A stretch of 30,139 bases of DNA from a virus. A model generated the notes under the pieces. It worked only from the letters and a program-made list of their open reading frames with translations. It searched no databases and was not told where the DNA came from. Position 1 is the first letter of the stretch. Each line of letters begins with the position of its first letter. Below are positions 3,204 through 30,139 of this stretch, one piece after another. The DNA lies in the IMG/VR virus record IMGVR_UViG_3300046777_000328, positions 1 through 30,139 of that record; one strand, 5' to 3'. Position numbers and translations under genes: made by a program.

Positions 3204-4840
3204 AACGTATCCTCCTGCATTTCCAACATACGTCCAGTCTCCATGTCATACTTCAAAGTACACGCTGGGCCTGTATAACCATTGTAACGATTCTTAGCCA
3301 CTGCAATCTTAGTCATGTGTCTCTCATTCTCATCCTCAGCCATGCTATTACGTTCCAATGTAATCACAGCATCTGACAGCTGAGCAATTGAGCCTGAACC
3401 TCTGAGCTGCGACAATGATACTGACTGTCCATCTTCATGTCCTGCATTGCCTTGAGGTCTACGAAGGTGACTTACACAGATCAAAGTGATCTCCAACTCT
3501 TGAACCAGTGTACGAAGCTTCGTCATCATATTGTCAATCACTTTACGCTCGTCACCAAGATCATTACCAGATATAGCAATAGAGATATGATCCAAGAATA
3601 TGACACGACAGTCACAAGCTTTTGCCATATACCTGATCCTATTGGCGATATTATCAATGTCAGTGCTGCCAAAGTGGTCAAACAAATATATACGATTTGT
3701 CCCCAGTGTAGCGTCGAAGGCATCTTTAAGTTCCTGTTCAGTTGTCGGTGTATCAGGTAAGTGCAACAGCTTATTAGCGTGCAACGACATGATACTTCTA
3801 GCTGTCTTACGAGTTGACTCTTCGAGGAATAACCCTCCAATGTTCCACTTCGTAGTGTTCAGAATGTTAAACAAGATCTCACGTAAGAATTGACTCTTAC
3901 CGAGGCCTGAGCCTGCTGTGACTGTGACTAACTCCGATGGACGCATACCGTAGAGAAGCTTATTCAAGCCCTTCCAAGGGTACATAGCCTCAGCCTTAGC
4001 CTCAGGTTTAATCACTTCCTCCCACAGTGAGGCAGCATTGATAATTCCATCAGGAATGTAAACCTCAGCTCTCCACCACTCATTTACAAACTCTTTAGTA
4101 GCCCCAGCAATTAGATAATCACAAGCATCTTTGTAGCCACTCAAATGCTTAACAATCTTAGCCTTCTGTCCGAACAGTTCAGCTACCTCTTTAGAAGCCT
4201 TCTTACCCGGCTCATCAGCATCGAAGCAGATAACAATGTTCTCGAAGCTGTTTAACCATTCATATTGAGCTTTACAGTCCTTTAGAGCAGCTTGAGCACC
4301 ATTCCTGATACTTACTGAAGGCCACTGGCTACCTGTGAGCTGGTATCCTGCCAAGGCATCAAGTTCTCCCTCATAGACGGTGACGTACTTGCCACCTGCG
4401 TGAAAGAGCTGTTGACCGAACAACCTAGCATCTTTGAATGAGCCAAGAATGCTGAAAGTTTTATCTGCCACTCGTCTAACTTTTGAGGCGATAACTGTTC
4501 CGGTATCGTCAGTGTAAGGATAAAAGTGTTGTCCATTGTCTTGTGTTACTCCATATTTCTCACACGTTTGTAATGTAATACCTCTGTCAGGTATTGATTT
4601 AACATTTCCTTTAACTTCTAACATAGGTGATGTTACCTTGGTTGATTTTCTGTTAACTGCATCTTGCTTAACTGTGAAGTCATCATATTCATTCTCATGA
4701 TGTGTTTCATGACAGTTAAAGCAATAGGTGTGGTTGTCATCGTATAAAGCACCTGCGTCTGAGCTGCCACAGTACTCACAGGGTATGTGCTTTACAAACT
4801 TTGACTCAGGTTTCTCTTTGCGTACTACACTAAGCTTCAT
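3200..4840 (-). CDS. T7 gp4-like bifunctional DNA primase-helicase
   Basis: Unwinds the fork and makes RNA primers for the phage polymerase. In order (546-aa numbering): a four-cysteine zinc ribbon (C21, C24, C40, C43); a TOPRIM primase with EGELDA (E157) and FDADEPG (D207, D209); and a RecA-like hexameric helicase with Walker A GSGLGKS (310-316, K315), Walker B VIFLD (D417), CVSHLRRP (453-462 region, H458) and a later AKNRYNG where the arginine finger is expected. Length fits T7 gp4 (566 aa). I prefer the ATG at 4840, with GGAGG at 5-nt spacing. The ATG at 4861 would add seven residues, lacks a good site and overlaps the previous gene more deeply. The stop overlaps the next start (ATGA). Confidence 0.96.
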   Translation of the reverse strand: MKLSVVRKEKPESKFVKHIPCEYCGSSDAGALYDDNHTYCFNCHETHHENEYDDFTVKQDAVNRKSTKVTSPMLEVKGNVKSIPDRGITLQTCEKYGVTQDNGQHFYPYTDDTGTVIASKVRRVADKTFSILGSFKDARLFGQQLFHAGGKYVTVYEGELDALAGYQLTGSQWPSVSIRNGAQAALKDCKAQYEWLNSFENIVICFDADEPGKKASKEVAELFGQKAKIVKHLSGYKDACDYLIAGATKEFVNEWWRAEVYIPDGIINAASLWEEVIKPEAKAEAMYPWKGLNKLLYGMRPSELVTVTAGSGLGKSQFLREILFNILNTTKWNIGGLFLEESTRKTARSIMSLHANKLLHLPDTPTTEQELKDAFDATLGTNRIYLFDHFGSTDIDNIANRIRYMAKACDCRVIFLDHISIAISGNDLGDERKVIDNMMTKLRTLVQELEITLICVSHLRRPQGNAGHEDGQSVSLSQLRGSGSIAQLSDAVITLERNSMAEDENERHMTKIAVAKNRYNGYTGPACTLKYDMETGRMLEMQEDTL

Positions 4841-5075
4841 CACAGCCTCCGTCTGTTTCATTTAGTACCCTTTCCGTGCCAAGGGCACTCCTAAGGCCTT
4901 CAATGGTCTTTAGAGCTGTTTTATCAGGGTATCCATAGTAGATGTCCCCTCTGAGCTGAAAAGCTGTGAAATCCTCTAACATGGACAATGTCTCAGCTAG
5001 AGTCTTAAGGCTTGCATCACCTGAGAGTGTGTTAGACGGGAAAGGCCAAGGCTTTTGTGGGTCAATGTCAGTCAT
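4830..5075 (-). CDS. Hypothetical protein upstream of primase-helicase, 81 aa
   Basis: Unknown. The sequence starts MTDIDPQKPWPFP, has a helical middle (LKTLAETLSMLEDFTAFQL), and ends ETDGGCDEA. It is acidic and probably cytoplasmic. Its end overlaps the primase-helicase start by 11 nt and encodes that gene's GGAGG Shine-Dalgarno, so the two are probably co-translated. Its own ATG shares bases with the TAA of the tiny upstream frame. Confidence 0.7.
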   Translation of the reverse strand: MTDIDPQKPWPFPSNTLSGDASLKTLAETLSMLEDFTAFQLRGDIYYGYPDKTALKTIEGLRSALGTERVLNETDGGCDEA

Positions 5076-5334: not shown

Positions 5335-5340
5335 AAATTA

Positions 5341-5519
5341 TCCTTTCAATGGGTTATAGTCTATTTCGTATTATGAAACTTCAGCACTTTAAAGTTACTT
5401 TATAAGTAATTATATAAAGGTACTTTAATAGTGTATTTAACTTCTATGTAACTTCTATGGAACGTCTTAGTTCCTTTGTAGTTACTTTAAAGTAAGGGTA
5501 ACATACTTTGTACAGATTG
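5341..5519 (-). other. Leader region of the helicase/polymerase transcript
   Basis: This gap of about 180 nt is AT-rich and full of short symmetric motifs. On the plus strand there is a 14-nt perfect palindrome TTACTTTAAAGTAA at 5482-5495, ACTTTAAAGT at 5386-5395, and TTACTT-TAT-AAGTAA at 5395-5409. On the minus strand, GGAAC-TAAGAC-GTTCC (5474-5459) can form a hairpin and CATAGAAGTTA occurs twice in tandem (5459-5441). No convincing gene is present. It looks like a regulated 5' leader. Confidence 0.6.
5423..5449 (-). repeat. Leader repeat, copy 1 (26/27 identical to 8933-8959)
   Basis: Read on the minus strand it is ACATAGAAGTTAAA, then T, then ACACTATTAAAG. The copy at 8933-8959 on the plus strand differs only in having G at position 15. 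Both lie in gene-free leaders, downstream of a candidate or consensus sigma-70 promoter, in the direction of transcription. A second shared 15-nt block (TTACTTATAAAGTAA) follows at 5409-5395 here and at 8989-9003 there. Confidence 0.85.
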
Positions 5520-5523
5520 TCAA
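5495..5523 (-). promoter_or_regulatory. Candidate sigma-70 promoter for helicase/polymerase transcript
   Basis: On the minus strand TTGACA (5523-5518) is followed after 17 nt by TACCCT (5500-5495). The -35 is perfect and the spacing ideal. The -10 keeps only the three key positions (T, A and final T). The -35 overlaps the stop codon of the upstream gene. Transcription would start near 5488 and pass through the repeat at 5449-5423. Confidence 0.4.
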
Positions 5524-5756
5524 TAGTCTCCTCTGTCTATACTGTCACCAATGTGACTATCGTTGTCTTCATCTTCTACACTGTCGTCAATGTCATCCTC
5601 AGAGATCAAGTCTCTACGGTCTTTGGTGGGCAGATTAGCATCCATCTGTACAGTTTTAAAGCATTGTTGACAGAGATCAATAAACATACCCGTTAAAGCG
5701 TGCTTACGTGTAGCTTCAAAGTCAGTCAATAGTTTGTCACAGCAAATACATTTCAT
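5520..5756 (-). CDS. Zinc-finger-like protein with acidic tail, 78 aa
   Basis: The N-terminus has paired cysteines CICC (C3, C5, C6) and LCQQC (C29, C32 region), separated by DKLLTDFEATRKHALTG, giving a probable treble-clef or zinc-ribbon fold. The remainder is a very acidic tail (SEDDIDDSVEDEDNDS). Similar short proteins with CxxCxKxLTDFEATRK occur in many T7-like and T4-like phages (from memory). The function is unknown; binding RNA polymerase or DNA is plausible but unsupported. The -35 of the next transcript overlaps its stop. Confidence 0.78.
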   Translation of the reverse strand: MKCICCDKLLTDFEATRKHALTGMFIDLCQQCFKTVQMDANLPTKDRRDLISEDDIDDSVEDEDNDSHIGDSIDRGDY

Positions 5757-5758
5757 TA

Positions 5759-5899
5759 TTATTCCTTTACTTCAATCAACTCAATGTCTTCAGGGTCGTA
5801 ATCTATTGCTGCATACAGCATCTCAATAGCCATGTCTTCATCCCATGCCTCTACCCAAACAATTTCATCTTTGTCTAAACGAAAACAATATTCATTCAT
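5759..5899 (-). CDS. Small acidic protein, 46 aa
   Basis: The frame starts MNEYCFRLDKDEIVWVEAWD and ends IDYDPEDIELIEVKE. It is acidic with probable beta-alpha structure. AGGAAA lies just before the ATG, overlapping the end of the preceding gene. The stop is 2 nt before the next ATG, whose Shine-Dalgarno (AAAGGA) lies inside this frame. No family is recognised. Confidence 0.68.
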   Translation of the reverse strand: MNEYCFRLDKDEIVWVEAWDEDMAIEMLYAAIDYDPEDIELIEVKE

Positions 5900-5902
5900 A
5901 GT

Positions 5903-6109
5903 TTATTTCCTTTTAAAAGGGTTAACTGTACTCCATGCGGCTAAGTGAATAGCCTTCCCATCAGCATCATAACAGAGGCTGTACATTCCATCAATGTGTT
6001 TGAACCATAACAACCCAATATGAGTCTTTATAGGTGTCTCTTTAGGGACATCATACAAAGGTTTTGAGGGTTGTTCAATCCAGTCTTTTAAGTCAATTTC
6101 TGATAACAT
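5903..6109 (-). CDS. Hypothetical protein, 68 aa
   Basis: Begins MLSEIDLKDWIEQPSKPLYD and contains THIGLLWFKHIDGMYSLCYD, which suggests a small beta-rich domain. GAGGA, encoded in the last codons of the upstream gene, lies 8 nt before the ATG, and that stop (TAA) directly precedes the ATG. Unknown early phage protein. Confidence 0.68.
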   Translation of the reverse strand: MLSEIDLKDWIEQPSKPLYDVPKETPIKTHIGLLWFKHIDGMYSLCYDADGKAIHLAAWSTVNPFKRK

Positions 6110-6298
6110 TTATACATCCTCGCTTTCTAAAGTCATTTTAAATGTTAACCCCGCACCCATCGTATGAAAATAATTACGTATAGGTTCTATAATGTTTTTA
6201 ATGTCTGTTTCACCCATTAGACAATCAAAACTAAAGGTTATGATAGGTTCATCGTCTGTCTTAGAAAACCCTTGAATTAAGCCTTTTGTGTAGTACAT
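6110..6298 (-). CDS. Hypothetical protein, 62 aa
   Basis: Starts MYYTKGLIQGFSKTDDEPII and ends with an acidic LESEDV. It is a predicted small alpha/beta protein with a central FDCLMGETDIKNIIEPIRNYF. GAGGT lies upstream of the ATG. It directly abuts the next gene. No family is recognised. Confidence 0.65.
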   Translation of the reverse strand: MYYTKGLIQGFSKTDDEPIITFSFDCLMGETDIKNIIEPIRNYFHTMGAGLTFKMTLESEDV

Positions 6299-6355
6299 GG
6301 CTACCTCGCTATTAAATGTTGAATAAGTCTGCTTAAATAGGCCTTTAAAGCCTTT

Positions 6356-6604
6356 CTAGGTACGTTCTAGATCGTAGTCAATCCCTGCTTGAGTATCTAG
6401 CTCTTTAAGATACTTCTTTCTAGCCTCATATTCTAGGTTTACCCACTGATCGTCTGACAGTACATCATAGACGTTAAAGCCCTCATACAGTACATGGTTA
6501 AACTCTACTGGGTCTCCATATTCATCAATTTCACATGAGACAGAGACACAAGCCCTACTGTCTGACAATAGCGTCTGAAATTCAAATGTTCTAGTGTTGC
6601 TCAT
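6356..6604 (-). CDS. Hypothetical acidic protein, 82 aa
   Basis: Starts MSNTRTFEFQTLLSDSRACV and ends LDTQAGIDYDLERT. The N-terminal half looks beta-rich and the C-terminal half helical (WVNLEYEARKKYLKEL). GGGGGA precedes the ATG. The start overlaps the upstream gene by 14 nt. A 57-nt gap follows in which I see no feature. Unknown early gene. Confidence 0.7.
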   Translation of the reverse strand: MSNTRTFEFQTLLSDSRACVSVSCEIDEYGDPVEFNHVLYEGFNVYDVLSDDQWVNLEYEARKKYLKELDTQAGIDYDLERT

Positions 6605-6839
6605 ACATCCCCCGACCTGTTATTGCAATCATAAACATGTCCGCATGTTCTTGATGTTCTTTGTCTGTCATTGAGTTATAAAAATCTTTTACTTCATCTT
6701 GATATGTCAATAAGAGAAGCTGATAAAACAATGCATGATGATAATCTTCTGCGTGTGCAGATTCAAACATGTGGTAAAGATAAGTATTCACCATCTGCTT
6801 CAAGTAGTACAAGTCTAATGCTTTTGATGATTCATTCAT
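6591..6839 (-). CDS. Hypothetical helical protein, 82 aa
   Basis: Rich in His, Tyr and Leu (YLYHMFESAHAEDYHHALFY), then LLLLTYQDEVKDFYNSM. It is predicted to be all helical. The Shine-Dalgarno AAGGAAA lies in the end of the upstream gene, whose TGA forms ATGA with this start. The function is unknown. Confidence 0.7.
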   Translation of the reverse strand: MNESSKALDLYYLKQMVNTYLYHMFESAHAEDYHHALFYQLLLLTYQDEVKDFYNSMTDKEHQEHADMFMIAITGRGMYEQH

Positions 6840-6988
6840 GGTTTAAGTTTCCTTTGTATGACAAGTTTATAAAGGTTAGCAGGTTGACCCTCTAATGTGT
6901 TGTTATCTGCTAGCCAATCCTGAGCAAATGATAACTTATTAAAGGTTGCAACGACAATGCCTGAGGATATGCTTACAATTTTATACAT
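6836..6988 (-). CDS. Small hypothetical protein, 50 aa
   Basis: Frame MYKIVSISSGIVVATFNKLS to VIQRKLKP; the pattern is a beta-hairpin followed by a helix (FAQDWLADN). AAGGGGA precedes the ATG. It overlaps the upstream gene by 8 nt and the downstream one by ATGA, so it fits the packed operon. No family is recognised. Confidence 0.65.
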   Translation of the reverse strand: MYKIVSISSGIVVATFNKLSFAQDWLADNNTLEGQPANLYKLVIQRKLKP

Positions 6989-7160
6989 CAAGTGTCCCCT
7001 TAATAGGTGTTAGACGCTGTACAGATTGACTTAAAAGCCACTTGTCACCTAATAGACGCACTGAGCGGATCCACTTGCGACGATAATCCCTTCGAACGTG
7101 CTCAGGTACATCGTAAGACTTGAATAGATCACGTGAGTGTTTTAGTAGTTTAGTATTCAT
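6981..7160 (-). CDS. Small basic protein, 59 aa
   Basis: Reads MNTKLLKHSRDLFKSYDVPE, then VRRDYRRKWIRSVRLLGDKW, and ends TPIKGTLDV. It is strongly basic and helical, so nucleic-acid binding is possible. The start forms ATGA with the upstream gene, and the end overlaps the next gene by 8 nt. I recall similar short proteins in T7-like phages but no assigned role. Confidence 0.68.
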   Translation of the reverse strand: MNTKLLKHSRDLFKSYDVPEHVRRDYRRKWIRSVRLLGDKWLLSQSVQRLTPIKGTLDV

Positions 7161-7321
7161 TTATTTATATCCTCTTCGTCAATGTTAAGAATTGCCAATA
7201 TAGCCTTGACTCTATCAGCCGATAAAGTTAGCCACCTAGTTTCTCCACAGTCACTTCTAAGCTTTAGATCTACTGTATCCTCATTGCCTAGCTTTTTGAA
7301 TTCGTGATCGTAATATGTCAT
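7157..7321 (-). CDS. Small hypothetical protein, 54 aa
   Basis: Frame MTYYDHEFKKLGNEDTVDLK to NIDEEDINK. A beta-rich first half is followed by a helix (SADRVKAILAILN) and an acidic end. GGGAAA lies upstream. The stop overlaps the next ATG as ATGA. Unknown function. Confidence 0.66.
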   Translation of the reverse strand: MTYYDHEFKKLGNEDTVDLKLRSDCGETRWLTLSADRVKAILAILNIDEEDINK

Positions 7322-7348
7322 TTTACTGTTTCCCTATATAATGTTAGC

Positions 7349-7663
7349 TCAGGCTGTAACTAGCTTATCGCCTACGTATGTCTTACCTTTTTTAGTGTAT
7401 ACAGCTACACCTAAGGCACGCAAACGGCTCTTAGTGGTCTTTGTAGGCCATTGAGCCAATGTAACTGGGTTATAGTCAACCCTATCCATTGAGTATGTAT
7501 AGGTTGCAATGTGGTGACCGTGTAGATATATCTTAGCGTGCTCAATACGTGCGTGCATAAGTTCGTTTAGTTCTGTCAAGTATTCCACCCGTGAATTGTC
7601 AATAGTGCCTGACTTTTTAGCTTTGATCAGGTTCCAGATTTGTTGTTCAATTTTACGCATCAT
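7349..7663 (-). CDS. Conserved early protein of T7-like phages, 104 aa
   Basis: Starts MMRKIEQQIWNLIKAKKSG. It contains YLHGHHIATYTY, then VTLAQWPTKTTKSRLRALGV and a C-terminal KKGKTYVGDKLVTA. From memory, proteins with MRKIEQQMN at the start and a YLHGNxIA core are widespread in T7-like phages (possibly the DUF8033 group). No biochemical function is known to me. Two adjacent ATGs (7663, 7660) follow AAGGAAA; the second has the better spacing. It is basic and probably binds nucleic acid. Confidence 0.78.
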   Translation of the reverse strand: MMRKIEQQIWNLIKAKKSGTIDNSRVEYLTELNELMHARIEHAKIYLHGHHIATYTYSMDRVDYNPVTLAQWPTKTTKSRLRALGVAVYTKKGKTYVGDKLVTA

Positions 7664-7715
7664 GTTTCCTTAGTAGGTAGGCCGTAGCCTTGGGTTACTG
7701 CGACAGTGCAGTGCA

Positions 7716-7736
7716 TAGCAGTCTGTCACACTGCTA
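7716..7736 (-). other. Stem-loop in early operon spacer
   Basis: TAGCAGT (7716-7722) and ACTGCTA (7730-7736) pair perfectly around a 7-nt loop in the 89-nt gap between two leftward genes. No T-run follows on either strand, so it is not an obvious intrinsic terminator. An mRNA processing or stabilising hairpin is possible. Confidence 0.5.
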
Positions 7737-7752
7737 CACAATAGGCTGTCAC

Positions 7753-7851
7753 TTAGGCGACTAAGATATCGAAGTAGGCTAAGGCTCCGCAGGCCAGTGC
7801 AAGGCCTAGTAGCACAGCTGACAAGATATCATAAATTGTTTCTTTGTTCAT
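7753..7851 (-). CDS. Membrane micropeptide, 32 aa
   Basis: Frame MNKETIYDILSAVLLGLALA followed by CGALAYFDILVA. A short polar N-terminus is followed by one hydrophobic segment of about 20 residues, typical of a single-pass small membrane protein. The start lies 5 nt after the stop of the upstream gene, with GGAG about 10 nt before the ATG. It is second in the early leftward transcript, so it may act on the host membrane early. Unknown function. Confidence 0.55.
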   Translation of the reverse strand: MNKETIYDILSAVLLGLALACGALAYFDILVA

Positions 7852-7856
7852 GGTGG

Positions 7857-8063
7857 TTATACTCCAGCGTGCACATACAGTTGATGATGTGCTTCTACTT
7901 CATCGTCATACTCAGCGATGTATTGAAACTCATAATTATCTATTTTCTTTGCCAGTGCCCAGCCTTTGCGTACACTATCAGATGAATAATATTCAACCTC
8001 TGAAAGAACATAGTCGCCTTCCCTGCTGACAATGTGTCCATATCCAATTTCATTAATAGCCAT
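7857..8063 (-). CDS. First gene of the leftward early operon, 68 aa hypothetical
   Basis: Starts MAINEIGYGHIVSREGDYVL and ends HHQLYVHAGV. It is beta-rich in the first half, with an acidic IAEYDDEVEAHH near the end. AAAGGAC lies upstream of the ATG. It is the promoter-proximal gene of the leftward block, next to the 1.08-kb regulatory and origin region. Its position would suit an early host-takeover function, but no family is recognised. Confidence 0.7.
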   Translation of the reverse strand: MAINEIGYGHIVSREGDYVLSEVEYYSSDSVRKGWALAKKIDNYEFQYIAEYDDEVEAHHQLYVHAGV

Positions 8064-8131
8064 GATGTTATGTCCTTTAGTTAGACACTAGCACTATTGC
8101 TCTTGTCTTGCCCTCTATTATCCAGCTCTAC

Positions 8132-8204
8132 CTTACACGAACCTTACAATCACAATATTTTTATCATCTTTACAAAACTTTACAATACTGTAAGCTTTGT
8201 AAGG
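8132..8204. repeat. CTTACA/TTTACA repeat cluster next to the early operon
   Basis: Four direct copies (CTTACA at 8132 and 8143; CTTTACA at 8168 and 8178) and two inverted copies (TGTAAG at 8189, TGTAAGG at 8198) are spaced 9-11 bp within each pair, about one helical turn. They lie 70-140 bp upstream of the first leftward gene. This is typical of a multi-site operator or iteron array, but no binding protein is identified. Confidence 0.5.
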
Positions 8205-8291
8205 TGATATTGATTTAAACGGCTTTAGAGCGATTATTTCAGTTTTGCATACTTACCCCTTGGAGAAAGTTACTAACACCACAACTACTAC

Positions 8292-8523
8292 TTATCCACA
8301 GTTGTAACTCTTATATAAGACTAAAACCTGTGTATAACTTTGGTTTTGTGGTCACTTATCCACAGCCTTGTGTATAACTTGTGAGTAACTCTTTAGTTAG
8401 GGTTTATACTAGGTAGTGCTTTATAGGTGCTACATTGCCATTCACACTTGGCCTAGTTAGTAAACTACTAGTTAGTCAACTAGATGTGGATAACTTTGTA
8501 GCTTGTGGATAACCTGTGGATAA
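8292..8523. other. DnaA-box cluster, putative replication origin or DnaA sink
   Basis: The perfect bacterial DnaA box TTATCCACA occurs at 8292-8300 and 8356-8364 on the plus strand. It occurs as TGTGGATAA (minus strand) at 8485-8493, 8504-8512 and 8515-8523. Two near-matches TGTGTATAA lie at 8329-8337 and 8369-8377. The plus-strand and minus-strand perfect boxes form opposed groups around a spacer with two CTAGTTAGT direct repeats (8453, 8468) and a CTAGTT-AGTC-AACTAG inverted repeat (8468-8483). Five exact 9-mers in 232 bp cannot be chance. Origin function itself is inferred. Confidence 0.8.
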
Positions 8524-8645
8524 CTTTAGAGTGACTATGTAAGTGAGTACTGACTACAAAGTTACTGGGGGGAGGGGTGACTGCTTAGTGATTACTTTTG
8601 CGGGAGCCTACAAAGTACACAAAAAAGGATAAATAGGACTAAGTA

Positions 8646-8674
8646 GTTATAACTTATAACCAATTGATCTACAA
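8646..8674 (-). promoter_or_regulatory. Weak candidate leftward promoter
   Basis: On the minus strand TTGTAG (8674-8669), a 17-nt spacer, then TATAAC (8651-8646). It would give a long leader (nearly 590 nt) before the first leftward gene and cross the DnaA boxes. It is the best sigma-70-like match I found for the early operon, but it is not strong. Confidence 0.22.
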
Positions 8675-8807
8675 AGAAAAAGTAGAACTATAGAGTACAA
8701 TCTAGACACCCTGAGAAAGGGGAACTTTAAAGGTCTTAAAAGTAGCGTATAAGAATTAGAGTGTAGACTCTAAAGTGAACAAAAAAGTAAAATAAATAAG
8801 AAAAGAC

Positions 8808-8836
8808 TTGACAAATAGACAAAGATAGTGTATAAT
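8808..8836 (+). promoter_or_regulatory. Consensus sigma-70 promoter for the late operon
   Basis: TTGACA (8808-8813), a 17-nt spacer, then TATAAT (8831-8836), with both hexamers exactly consensus. The start point should be near 8843, giving an mRNA leader of about 300 nt before the small terminase gene. A perfect promoter for host RNA polymerase implies strong host-driven transcription of the structural genes unless it is repressed. Confidence 0.85.
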
Positions 8837-8863
8837 ATTCTACATAGGAAATAATTGTGTTTA

Positions 8864-8889
8864 CTAAGAAGCCTGACCCCACTTCTTAG
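8864..8889 (+). other. Stem-loop near the 5' end of the late mRNA
   Basis: CTAAGAAG (8864-8871) and CTTCTTAG (8882-8889) form a perfect 8-bp stem with the 10-nt loop CCTGACCCCA, about 20 nt downstream of the expected transcription start. No T-run follows, so a terminator is unlikely. A 5' mRNA-stabilising or protein-binding hairpin is possible. Confidence 0.55.
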
Positions 8890-8932
8890 GTTGACTGAAA
8901 TGTATAGCGTAAGCGTACACCTTGGAAAGGGA

Positions 8933-8959
8933 ACATAGAAGTTAAAGACACTATTAAAG
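8933..8959 (+). repeat. Leader repeat, copy 2
   Basis: ACATAGAAGTTAAA, then G, then ACACTATTAAAG. It matches the minus-strand copy at 5449-5423 at 26 of 27 positions. It lies in the late mRNA leader about 90 nt after the expected start point and is followed by the shared TTACTTATAAAGTAA block at 8989-9003. Confidence 0.85.
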
Positions 8960-8988
8960 ATAATTATTATAAGTTATTACTGTTAATG

Positions 8989-9088
8989 TTACTTATAAAG
9001 TAATTAATATTAATAATACTATTATAAGTACTTATAATATTTATGTCTATATAACATTTATGTTAATGTCTTAGGTACTTTATAGTAC
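8989..9088. repeat. Chain of AT-rich palindromes before the terminase genes
   Basis: Five consecutive symmetric elements: TTACTT-ATA-AAGTAA (8989-9003); ATTAATATTAAT (8003-equivalent half sites at 9003-9014); a perfect 20-bp palindrome with half-site TATTATAAGT (9020-9039); AACAT-TT-ATGTT (9053-9064); and GTACT-TTAT-AGTAC (9075-9088). The stretch 8940-9070 is almost pure A+T and would melt easily. It could serve as an origin unwinding element, an operator array or a structured mRNA leader. Confidence 0.7.
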
Positions 9089-9145
9089 TCCACTTAAAAG
9101 TCTCCTTCGTGCTGGAAGCACTTCTATAAAGGACAAAGACGAGCA

Positions 9146-13078: not shown

Positions 13079-13107
13079 TTGACAAAGTGTTGTTTTTATG
13101 CTACAAT
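13079..13107 (+). promoter_or_regulatory. Sigma-70 promoter inside the late operon
   Basis: TTGACA (13079-13084), 17 nt, then TACAAT (13102-13107), in the 77-nt gap after the portal gene. Transcription should start near 13114, giving a leader of about 33 nt. It would add mRNA for the small proteins, scaffold and capsid, the most abundantly needed products. Confidence 0.75.
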
Positions 13108-15486: not shown

Positions 15487-15496
15487 TAGCTGAACA

Positions 15497-15532
15497 GGTT
15501 CCCCATACTCAAAAGGTGTGGGGAGCCTTTTT
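15497..15532 (+). terminator. Strong intrinsic terminator after the capsid gene
   Basis: GGTTCCCCATAC (15497-15508) pairs with GTGTGGGGAGCC (15516-15527) over 12 positions (two G-T), with the 7-nt loop TCAAAAG, followed by TTTTT (15528-15532). There is no promoter of similar quality just downstream, so tail genes must depend on read-through or antitermination. Confidence 0.92.
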
Positions 15533-29056: not shown

Positions 29057-29212
29057 TCAGTCTAGGATAAACGCTAGAGTAATAAATCCTATGTGTAGAT
29101 AGACAACAGGTACAGGATCGTCTCCCATGTTATCTTGTTCGTCCATGATGTACAGTTGATCAGCTTCTAAGCCAAACACTAGACCAGCTTTAGTTTCAAA
29201 CTCTAGAGTCAT
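29057..29212 (-). CDS. Hypothetical acidic protein, 51 aa, last gene of the leftward operon
   Basis: Frame MTLEFETKAGLVFGLEADQL, then an acidic EQDNMGDDPVP loop and a hydrophobic end VVYLHIGFITLAFILD. The pattern is all-beta. It starts within the stop of the glutaredoxin gene (ATGA) and has GGAAGGAAG about 6-10 nt before the ATG. It ends 25 nt before the terminator. Function unknown. Similar short acidic proteins that follow nucleotide-metabolism genes in phages are common, but none is recognised. Confidence 0.65.
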   Translation of the reverse strand: MTLEFETKAGLVFGLEADQLYIMDEQDNMGDDPVPVVYLHIGFITLAFILD

Positions 29213-29394
29213 TCTACGCTTCCTTCCATAACCATATAAGGTACTGTACGAACTGTAGGAAACATTCTCATGAAGTCTTCCCTTGTGATGTCTTTACCTA
29301 TGTTAATCTCTTTAAAAGGCTTACCCTCTTGTTTAAGAGTAGCCTTCAAAGATACACAAGCTGGACAGTTATCCTTTGTGTAAACTGTAATCAT
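29209..29394 (-). CDS. Small glutaredoxin / NrdH-like redoxin
   Basis: Probably the electron donor for the ribonucleotide reductase encoded just upstream. 61 aa, shorter than typical glutaredoxins (75-85). It shows MITVYTKDNCPACVSLKATL with a CPAC redox pair (C10, C13), and TVPYMV with the conserved cis-proline. The glycine-rich last strand and final helix of standard glutaredoxins are missing. The ATG overlaps the reductase stop (TAATG), so the two are co-translated. Confidence 0.88.
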   Translation of the reverse strand: MITVYTKDNCPACVSLKATLKQEGKPFKEINIGKDITREDFMRMFPTVRTVPYMVMEGSVE

Positions 29395-30139
29395 TAAATT
29401 TCACAGCCTCCTGCAGTACAAGCTAATGTCTGAGAACCTTCAACATTGTCGGTACGTTCAATGAACTTATCCCAATCAATACCTAAAGGCATCTTAGACA
29501 CCATGTCGTGATATTCAAACTCATTGATGGACTCATAAGGTGTCTGGCGATAAGTTCCAGAATCCATAGGCAAGAAGCTCACACCTGTAATCTCATCAAA
29601 GTTATTCCATACCCAAGCTCCAACTTCAGGCCACTCATGCTCATTAACTGAGATAGTGATAGATGGCTTATGCTCTGTATAATGTCTCTGATAGAGCAAC
29701 CACAGACGCAAGTGCTTAATAGCATTCAAGTCTTCACGCAGTACAGCACCTTTCTCAACTCGCATTGGGAAGCTAAACACTGTAGTACTCTCAGGCTTCA
29801 TAACACAAGGCTCAGCTGGGAATCCTTGAGCTTTCAAGAAGTCAGTCAGAGGATCTTTGTTATCAGACCGTACACGACGAATAAAGTACTGACTGTGCTG
29901 AGGATGGATGCCACTAGCAGTGCCTGTAAGCTGAGAGACAGTGCCCTCTGGCTTAATTGCAGTGATGGCAGCACTTCGATTAATACCGATAGCGTCAGCA
30001 AACTCAGCGTTAGTATCAATAGCCACATTCTTCAGTCCTTCCAAGATAGCTGGTAGTTCAGCATTATCAGGGTCATTCAACAATACGTTATCCAAGATAC
30101 CTGTCATTGACACACCCAACAAACGTTCCTCTTCAGTGT
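29394..30139 (-). CDS. nrdJ: Class II (B12-dependent) ribonucleotide reductase, C-terminal part
   Basis: Reduces ribonucleotides to deoxyribonucleotides for phage DNA synthesis. Only the C-terminal ~248 residues are in the window; the N-terminus lies beyond 30139 (reading is open to the edge, TEEERLLGVSMTGILD). Diagnostic segments are IKPEGTVSQLTGTASGIHPQ, then HSQYFIRRVRSD, and GTYRQTPYESINEFEYHDMV. The C-terminus ends ACTAGGCEI with a C-x4-C pair matching the redox-shuttle cysteines of the monomeric adenosylcobalamin-dependent triphosphate reductase (Lactobacillus type). These features favour class II over class I NrdA. A redoxin gene follows directly. Confidence 0.88.
   Translation of the reverse strand, partial: TEEERLLGVSMTGILDNVLLNDPDNAELPAILEGLKNVAIDTNAEFADAIGINRSAAITAIKPEGTVSQLTGTASGIHPQHSQYFIRRVRSDNKDPLTDFLKAQGFPAEPCVMKPESTTVFSFPMRVEKGAVLREDLNAIKHLRLWLLYQRHYTEHKPSITISVNEHEWPEVGAWVWNNFDEITGVSFLPMDSGTYRQTPYESINEFEYHDMVSKMPLGIDWDKFIERTDNVEGSQTLACTAGGCEI

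Follow-up and report, generated by a model that had tools for sequence, protein, structure and literature searches.

A conserved 27-nucleotide leader motif shared by the two divergent operons of an uncultured podovirus-like phage is a candidate RNA elongation signal

When each of two divergent operons opens with the same sense-oriented leader element, the arrangement is the classical one for processive antitermination, as exemplified by put in phage HK022 and nut in phage lambda. Here we examine an element with a similar arrangement in IMG/VR virus record IMGVR_UViG_3300046777_000328, a 30,139-base record of an uncultured virus that we refer to in its entirety as the window. Its right (structural) and left (replication) operons carry a common 27-mer in their untranslated leaders. 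The sequence evidence favors, without proving, that this motif acts as RNA. Our preferred explanation, held tentatively, is that it is a nascent-RNA signal for elongation or antitermination that would work much as put and nut do while belonging to neither family.

The first-pass annotation, made from the sequence alone, had reported the 27-mer ACATAGAAGTTAAA-K-ACACTATTAAAG at 8933 to 8959 on the plus strand and at 5449 to 5423 on the minus strand. Both copies are present, as ACATAGAAGTTAAAGACACTATTAAAG in the right operon (8933 to 8959, plus) and ACATAGAAGTTAAATACACTATTAAAG in the left operon (5423 to 5449, minus), and their sole difference is the G/T at K. Allowing up to three mismatches reveals no third copy in the window, and a copy appeared in 0 of 100 dinucleotide shuffles. 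The two copies are noncoding, falling in the gaps at 8064 to 9145 and 5335 to 5519 between open reading frames (ORFs), and each lies, as had been claimed, in sense within an untranslated leader behind a sigma-70-like promoter. On the right this is P_R1 (8808 to 8836, plus; TTGACA-17-TATAAT, 12/12), and on the left it is P_L (5495 to 5523, minus), in which TTGACA-17-TACCCT is joined by an extended −10 element (TGn). Relatives keep both promoters: the alignment shows the left one conserved as TTGACA-17-TG(C/T)TACCCT and the right one with the variants TTGTAA and TACAAT. The inverted repeats described upstream of the motif are likewise real (CTAAGAAG/CTTCTTAG at 8864 to 8889; GGAAC/GTTCC at 5474 to 5459 on the minus strand), and the promoter at 13079 indeed lacks the 27-mer. 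The shared downstream sequence TTACTTATAAAGTAA fared less well. It occurs at both leaders and nowhere else in the window, and it recurs in the relative G005 and in the right leader of G002, but most relatives do without it, so we regard it as a lineage-specific decoration.

Relatives of this phage were gathered by scanning IMG/VR with the terminase and the primase-helicase. The annotation had made its proposal depend on further copies of the motif in such genomes, and there are many. The exact 23-mer is found in 25 stretches of other IMG/VR contigs and the 18-mer core in 98, a few of the latter in long, probably unrelated contigs. Near-complete relative records carry one copy per strand; the copy in the sense of the structural operon precedes the large terminase gene by ~0.55 kb, and the copy in the sense of the replication operon lies 4 to 5 kb upstream. 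Among all fetched loci, 61 (a partly redundant set) have one copy per strand, invariably outward-facing and 3.1 to 4.9 kb apart, and none has more than two copies. What both leaders retain across the wider clade is a core of approximately CATAG-W-AGTTAAA(nACACT) and not all 27 nucleotides; GTTAAATACACTAT is near-invariant in left leaders, as is GGGGAACATAG-W-AGTTAAA in right leaders.

The two leaders of the window match each other with a score of 25.0, against a shuffle maximum of 11.8. All shuffles are likewise surpassed by the pairs from L045 (16.0) and from L094 (14.4), a more distant relative, and by that from L063, the last through a match outside the motif. A genome's own pair of leaders outscores cross pairs in 31 of 36 comparisons, an excess that is partly due to the shared ancestry of the relatives. 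This sharing within genomes fits a common trans-acting partner, which may be the host polymerase or a protein, although it is no proof of one. Beyond these relatives, neither leader has a significant match among 50,697 phage records (cultured phages gave only weak ones, with E values of 0.05 to 0.6), and we therefore found no described counterpart of the element. The exact 20-mer is absent from the collection of bacterial and archaeal genomes, the covariance models of Rfam release 15 match neither leader even at E values up to 1, and our literature search returned nothing directly on point.

In the right leader, two hairpins with compensatory changes precede the motif. The first, SL1 (8864 to 8889, plus), has the form CTAAGAAG-CCTGACCCCA-CTTCTTAG, with an invariant loop on a covarying stem; because the sequences were collected through the loop CCTGACCCCA, that invariance is partly by construction. 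In the stem, 92% of cells are paired, three of the eight pairs show changes on both sides, and the covariation score exceeds those of all 500 shuffles and of all slid registers. SL1 is found in 88 IMG/VR stretches, including relatives in which the motif has decayed. A second hairpin, SL2 (CCTT-GGA-AAGG; 8920 to 8930, plus), lies directly 5′ of the motif and reads CCCT-AGT-AGGG in relatives, a replacement of CCTT/AAGG by CCCT/AGGG that contains one double-changed pair. A possible outer helix ending in GAACATAG displays only one-sided changes between G-U and Watson-Crick pairs and is broken in some sequences.

The left leader folds differently. Its 5′ hairpin (5448 to 5492, minus) wraps GTAAC/GTTAC around GGAAC/GTTCC and closes before the tail of the motif, with a folding z score of −2.85 for 5492 to 5423. 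Four relatives gave −3.48, −3.29, −3.81, and −1.66, and the median over 32 unique left leaders is −1.8. A hairpin at this position occurs in nearly every lineage, on arms that differ by lineage (GGAAC/GTTCC, GGTAC/GTACC, GATAC/GTATC, or CTATGA/TCATAG), and it tends to close at GAAGTT, directly before AAATACACTAT. Over the same 32 leaders, the predicted probability of being unpaired rises from ~0.14 to 0.5 across GAAGTT to 0.7 to 0.9 across the tail; CAUAGAAGUU is thus predicted to be partly paired and AAAUACACUAU largely unpaired. RNAalifold predicted no structure when the left leader was taken as far as the motif, and nothing but a long-range stem when it was extended.

The core of the motif lies 36 to 58 nucleotides from the −10 box on the left and 89 to 204 on the right, and this distance varies because whole hairpins have been inserted or lost. 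Spacing this variable is easier to reconcile with an RNA than with a DNA site coupled to a promoter-bound polymerase. A scan of the window and of six motif-bearing relatives for strong sigma-70-like sites gave P_R1, P_L on the opposite strand, the conserved P_R2 (13079 to 13107, plus) before the capsid genes, and one at +12 to +15 kb that in the window falls inside an ORF (22630); the scan also gave a few extras limited to single genomes. A strong intrinsic terminator, T_cap (15496 to 15528, plus), stands behind the capsid gene and is kept in motif-bearing relatives, and a second strong one stands where the two operons converge. The motif is sense in both long operons, follows host promoters, and is missing from the short transcript that would run from the capsid promoter to T_cap. 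The conserved P_R2 and T_cap also bracket the capsid gene block, which suggests a self-contained capsid transcript.

Of the two readings offered by the first-pass annotation, an RNA signal such as an antitermination site is the better supported, though it is not proven. In the scheme we favor, the leader RNA would act in cis, and the 27-mer would be its conserved part. Host RNA polymerase would start at P_R1 and P_L, and each leader RNA would fold into at least one hairpin; the 5′ third of the motif (CAUAGAAGUU) would tend to serve as the 3′ arm that closes such hairpins, and the remainder (AAAUACACUAUUAAAG) would be exposed, as is clearly predicted on the left. The motif RNA would then act on the nascent transcript, and the same polymerase would elongate through the long operon, ~11 kb leftward or ~20 kb rightward, the latter including passage beyond T_cap. 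The motif-bearing right transcript would have to cross T_cap to reach the tail and lysis genes, and the motif-less transcript from P_R2 would end there and supply capsid. Three points of this scheme are inferred: RNA as the active form, elongation as the step on which it acts, and its binding, if any, by a host or phage protein.

Several results weigh against this scheme. T_cap is also present in some relatives that have no recognizable motif, so we reject a strict link between the two, and no strong intrinsic terminator was found in the left operon, leaving nothing obvious there to read through. Covariation in the left leader is modest, with 23 of 500 and 7 of 500 shuffles reaching the observed value. 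The structural alignments, built by hand from motif-anchored segments, favor the proposed pairs. An exposed tail is clearly predicted for the left leader only, and folding of the full right leader does not improve on shuffles (z of ~−0.3). We found no hairpin common to both leaders; the left one has alternative hairpins instead. Finally, the match between leaders loses significance in distant relatives (G017, L067, and L070) and is marginal in G011 and G013.

Among the other explanations, the motif may be an element of mRNA stability or processing, in which a 5′-terminal hairpin and a single-stranded tail protect the long mRNAs from decay or offer a site to a nuclease or RNA-binding protein. 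Both leaders are indeed AU-rich and long, and the left hairpin, which is strongly folded, begins at the predicted 5′ end or close to it. A stabilizing hairpin, however, needs no invariant linear sequence, such as both sets of leaders preserve, and the right copy lies ~90 to 200 nucleotides from its −10 box. On balance we consider this role unlikely.

We think it rather unlikely that the motif is instead a DNA operator, at which a phage regulator bound downstream of each promoter would delay or coordinate the two operons. Such a regulator would account for the pair being shared within each genome, with own pairs besting cross pairs as noted above, and AT-rich palindromes do surround both copies. 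The motif itself, however, lacks palindromic symmetry, and its spacing from the promoter differs between genomes by over 100 bp. Both copies invariably run in the sense of the transcript, and no recognizable family of DNA-binding regulators emerged among the early and left-arm proteins searched. An operator would also leave the hairpins with compensatory changes unexplained. As to the palindromes, the AT-rich rest of the right leader (8955 to 9065, plus; ~18% GC) holds a perfect one of 20 bp, TATTATAAGTACTTATAATA, at 9021 to 9040, and shorter forms (TATAAGTACTTATA) recur in relatives; genome-wide, palindromes are not above expectation.

An improbable alternative is a replication or recombination site flanking a putative origin, where the motif would specify a primer RNA or form the inverted pair for site-specific inversion. 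The outward-facing copies flank a cluster of DnaA boxes at a minimum of GC skew, and the stretch of 18% GC follows the right copy, but the putative origin is far from midway between them, at ~0.6 kb from one copy and ~3 kb from the other. Among ~50 copies, none has its upstream and downstream flank types exchanged, on which ground we reject an invertible segment. The cluster deserves description in its own right. The window has seven TTATMCACA DnaA boxes, and all of them fall within one 240-bp intergenic stretch (8292 to 8523) that coincides with the cumulative GC-skew minimum (~8328), and clusters of three to five boxes occupy the same place in G001, G002, G003, G013, and G018, with none in G005. 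In this phage, whose replisome is T7-like, the stretch is possibly a DnaA-type origin.

The other reading put forward by the annotation was that the motif is a promoter used by a phage RNA polymerase whose gene lies beyond the window. A search for PF00940, the single-subunit RNA polymerase family, gave no match in the window record and 22 relatives, eight of which are circularly complete, and the T7 control was recovered at an E value of 9.9e-110. Neither a polymerase nor a sigma factor was among the ten left-arm proteins searched from the complete G005 genome, which include DNA polymerase A, an exonuclease, endonuclease I, a SprT-like protein, a phosphoesterase, and a DUF3310 protein, and that genome has no ORF of a size and kind to suit an RNA polymerase. 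The supposed identity with the SP6 promoter core, GACACTAT, holds for one copy in the window, but TACACTAT stands in the other and in nearly every copy from relatives. Despite the CACTAT of the motif, which we take to resemble the core of T7-like promoters, and the partial state of the window record, a phage-type promoter is very unlikely and largely refuted because no such polymerase was found with a working control, strong sigma-70 promoters are conserved at both sites, and the SP6 likeness comes down to one base in one copy.

Judged by its genes, the window derives from a podovirus-like phage. Family searches identified an SU10/P22-like portal, a T7-type primase-helicase, and a Phage_capsid_2 capsid, and the terminase resembles those of many phages. 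Protein relatives among isolated phages are all distant: the primase reaches at most ~51% identity (to pelagiphage HTVC115P), the portal ~22 to 28% along only part of the protein (to phages that include HMO-2011-like ones), and the capsid ~30 to 35% (to cyanophages such as A-4L and Pf-WMP3). The complete circular relatives, eight by end overlap, span 35 to 39 kb; in G005 and G003, which are among them, the ORFs form a divergent pair of operons whose distal ends meet on the opposite side of the circle. By eye, the last two ORFs of the window record look like ribonucleotide reductase, cut by the record end (29394 to 30122, minus), and glutaredoxin (29209 to 29394, minus). In 18 genomes tested for small proteins, those encoded at 4830 to 5075 and 6356 to 6604 (both minus) were detected in all 10 genomes of the motif clade and in none of the eight others, and a zinc-finger-like protein (5520 to 5756, minus) was detected in all 18. 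The latter, encoded directly upstream of P_L, is small, with four cysteines and an acidic tail, and is possibly a transcription factor; since short, fast-evolving proteins may be missed, all three are only candidates for a partner of the leader element. SL1 sits before the terminase genes, a position that makes a packaging-site role possible for this hairpin.

How, then, does the element compare with the systems already described? It shares the letters CACTAT with T7 and SP6 promoters, but those would be expected in many copies before middle and late gene blocks, whereas each genome here has exactly two, with none at the capsid genes. With the nut sites of lambda, in which boxA and boxB act together with N, it has in common a divergent pair of leader RNA elements that combine a hairpin and a conserved linear part. 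Neither leader, however, contains GCTCTTWA from boxA (about CGCTCTTWA), whose four matches in the window are at chance level, and no N-like protein was identified; an arginine-rich early ORF of 59 amino acids (6981 to 7160, minus), considered as a partner, is missing from the motif-bearing relatives G002, G004, and G005. With putL and putR of HK022 it shares a layout in which one hairpin-based, sense-oriented element opens each of two long divergent operons behind a host sigma-70 promoter. The two-stem put fold is nevertheless not found here: SL1 and SL2 are separated by a variable linker of at least 11 nucleotides, the left leader has other hairpins in place of both, and what these leaders conserve is a linear sequence. 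On the features tested, we reject identity with put or nut and retain, as the leading hypothesis, that the element works as they do. A broader proposal, possible but doubtful at present, is that hairpins with the linear tail AGUUAAAUACACU on both divergent operons constitute a new family of cis-acting antitermination RNAs, in uncultured podoviruses with a T7-like replisome and no RNA polymerase of their own, where RNA-based antitermination of the host polymerase would replace a phage polymerase. Such a mechanism would explain how a phage that combines a T7-like replication set with the lack of its own RNA polymerase could have operons of ~11 and ~20 kb transcribed by host polymerase from essentially three strong promoters. 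Should the element prove to be an antiterminator, it would contribute a family of sequences distinct from both put and nut and provide a compact, portable test system.

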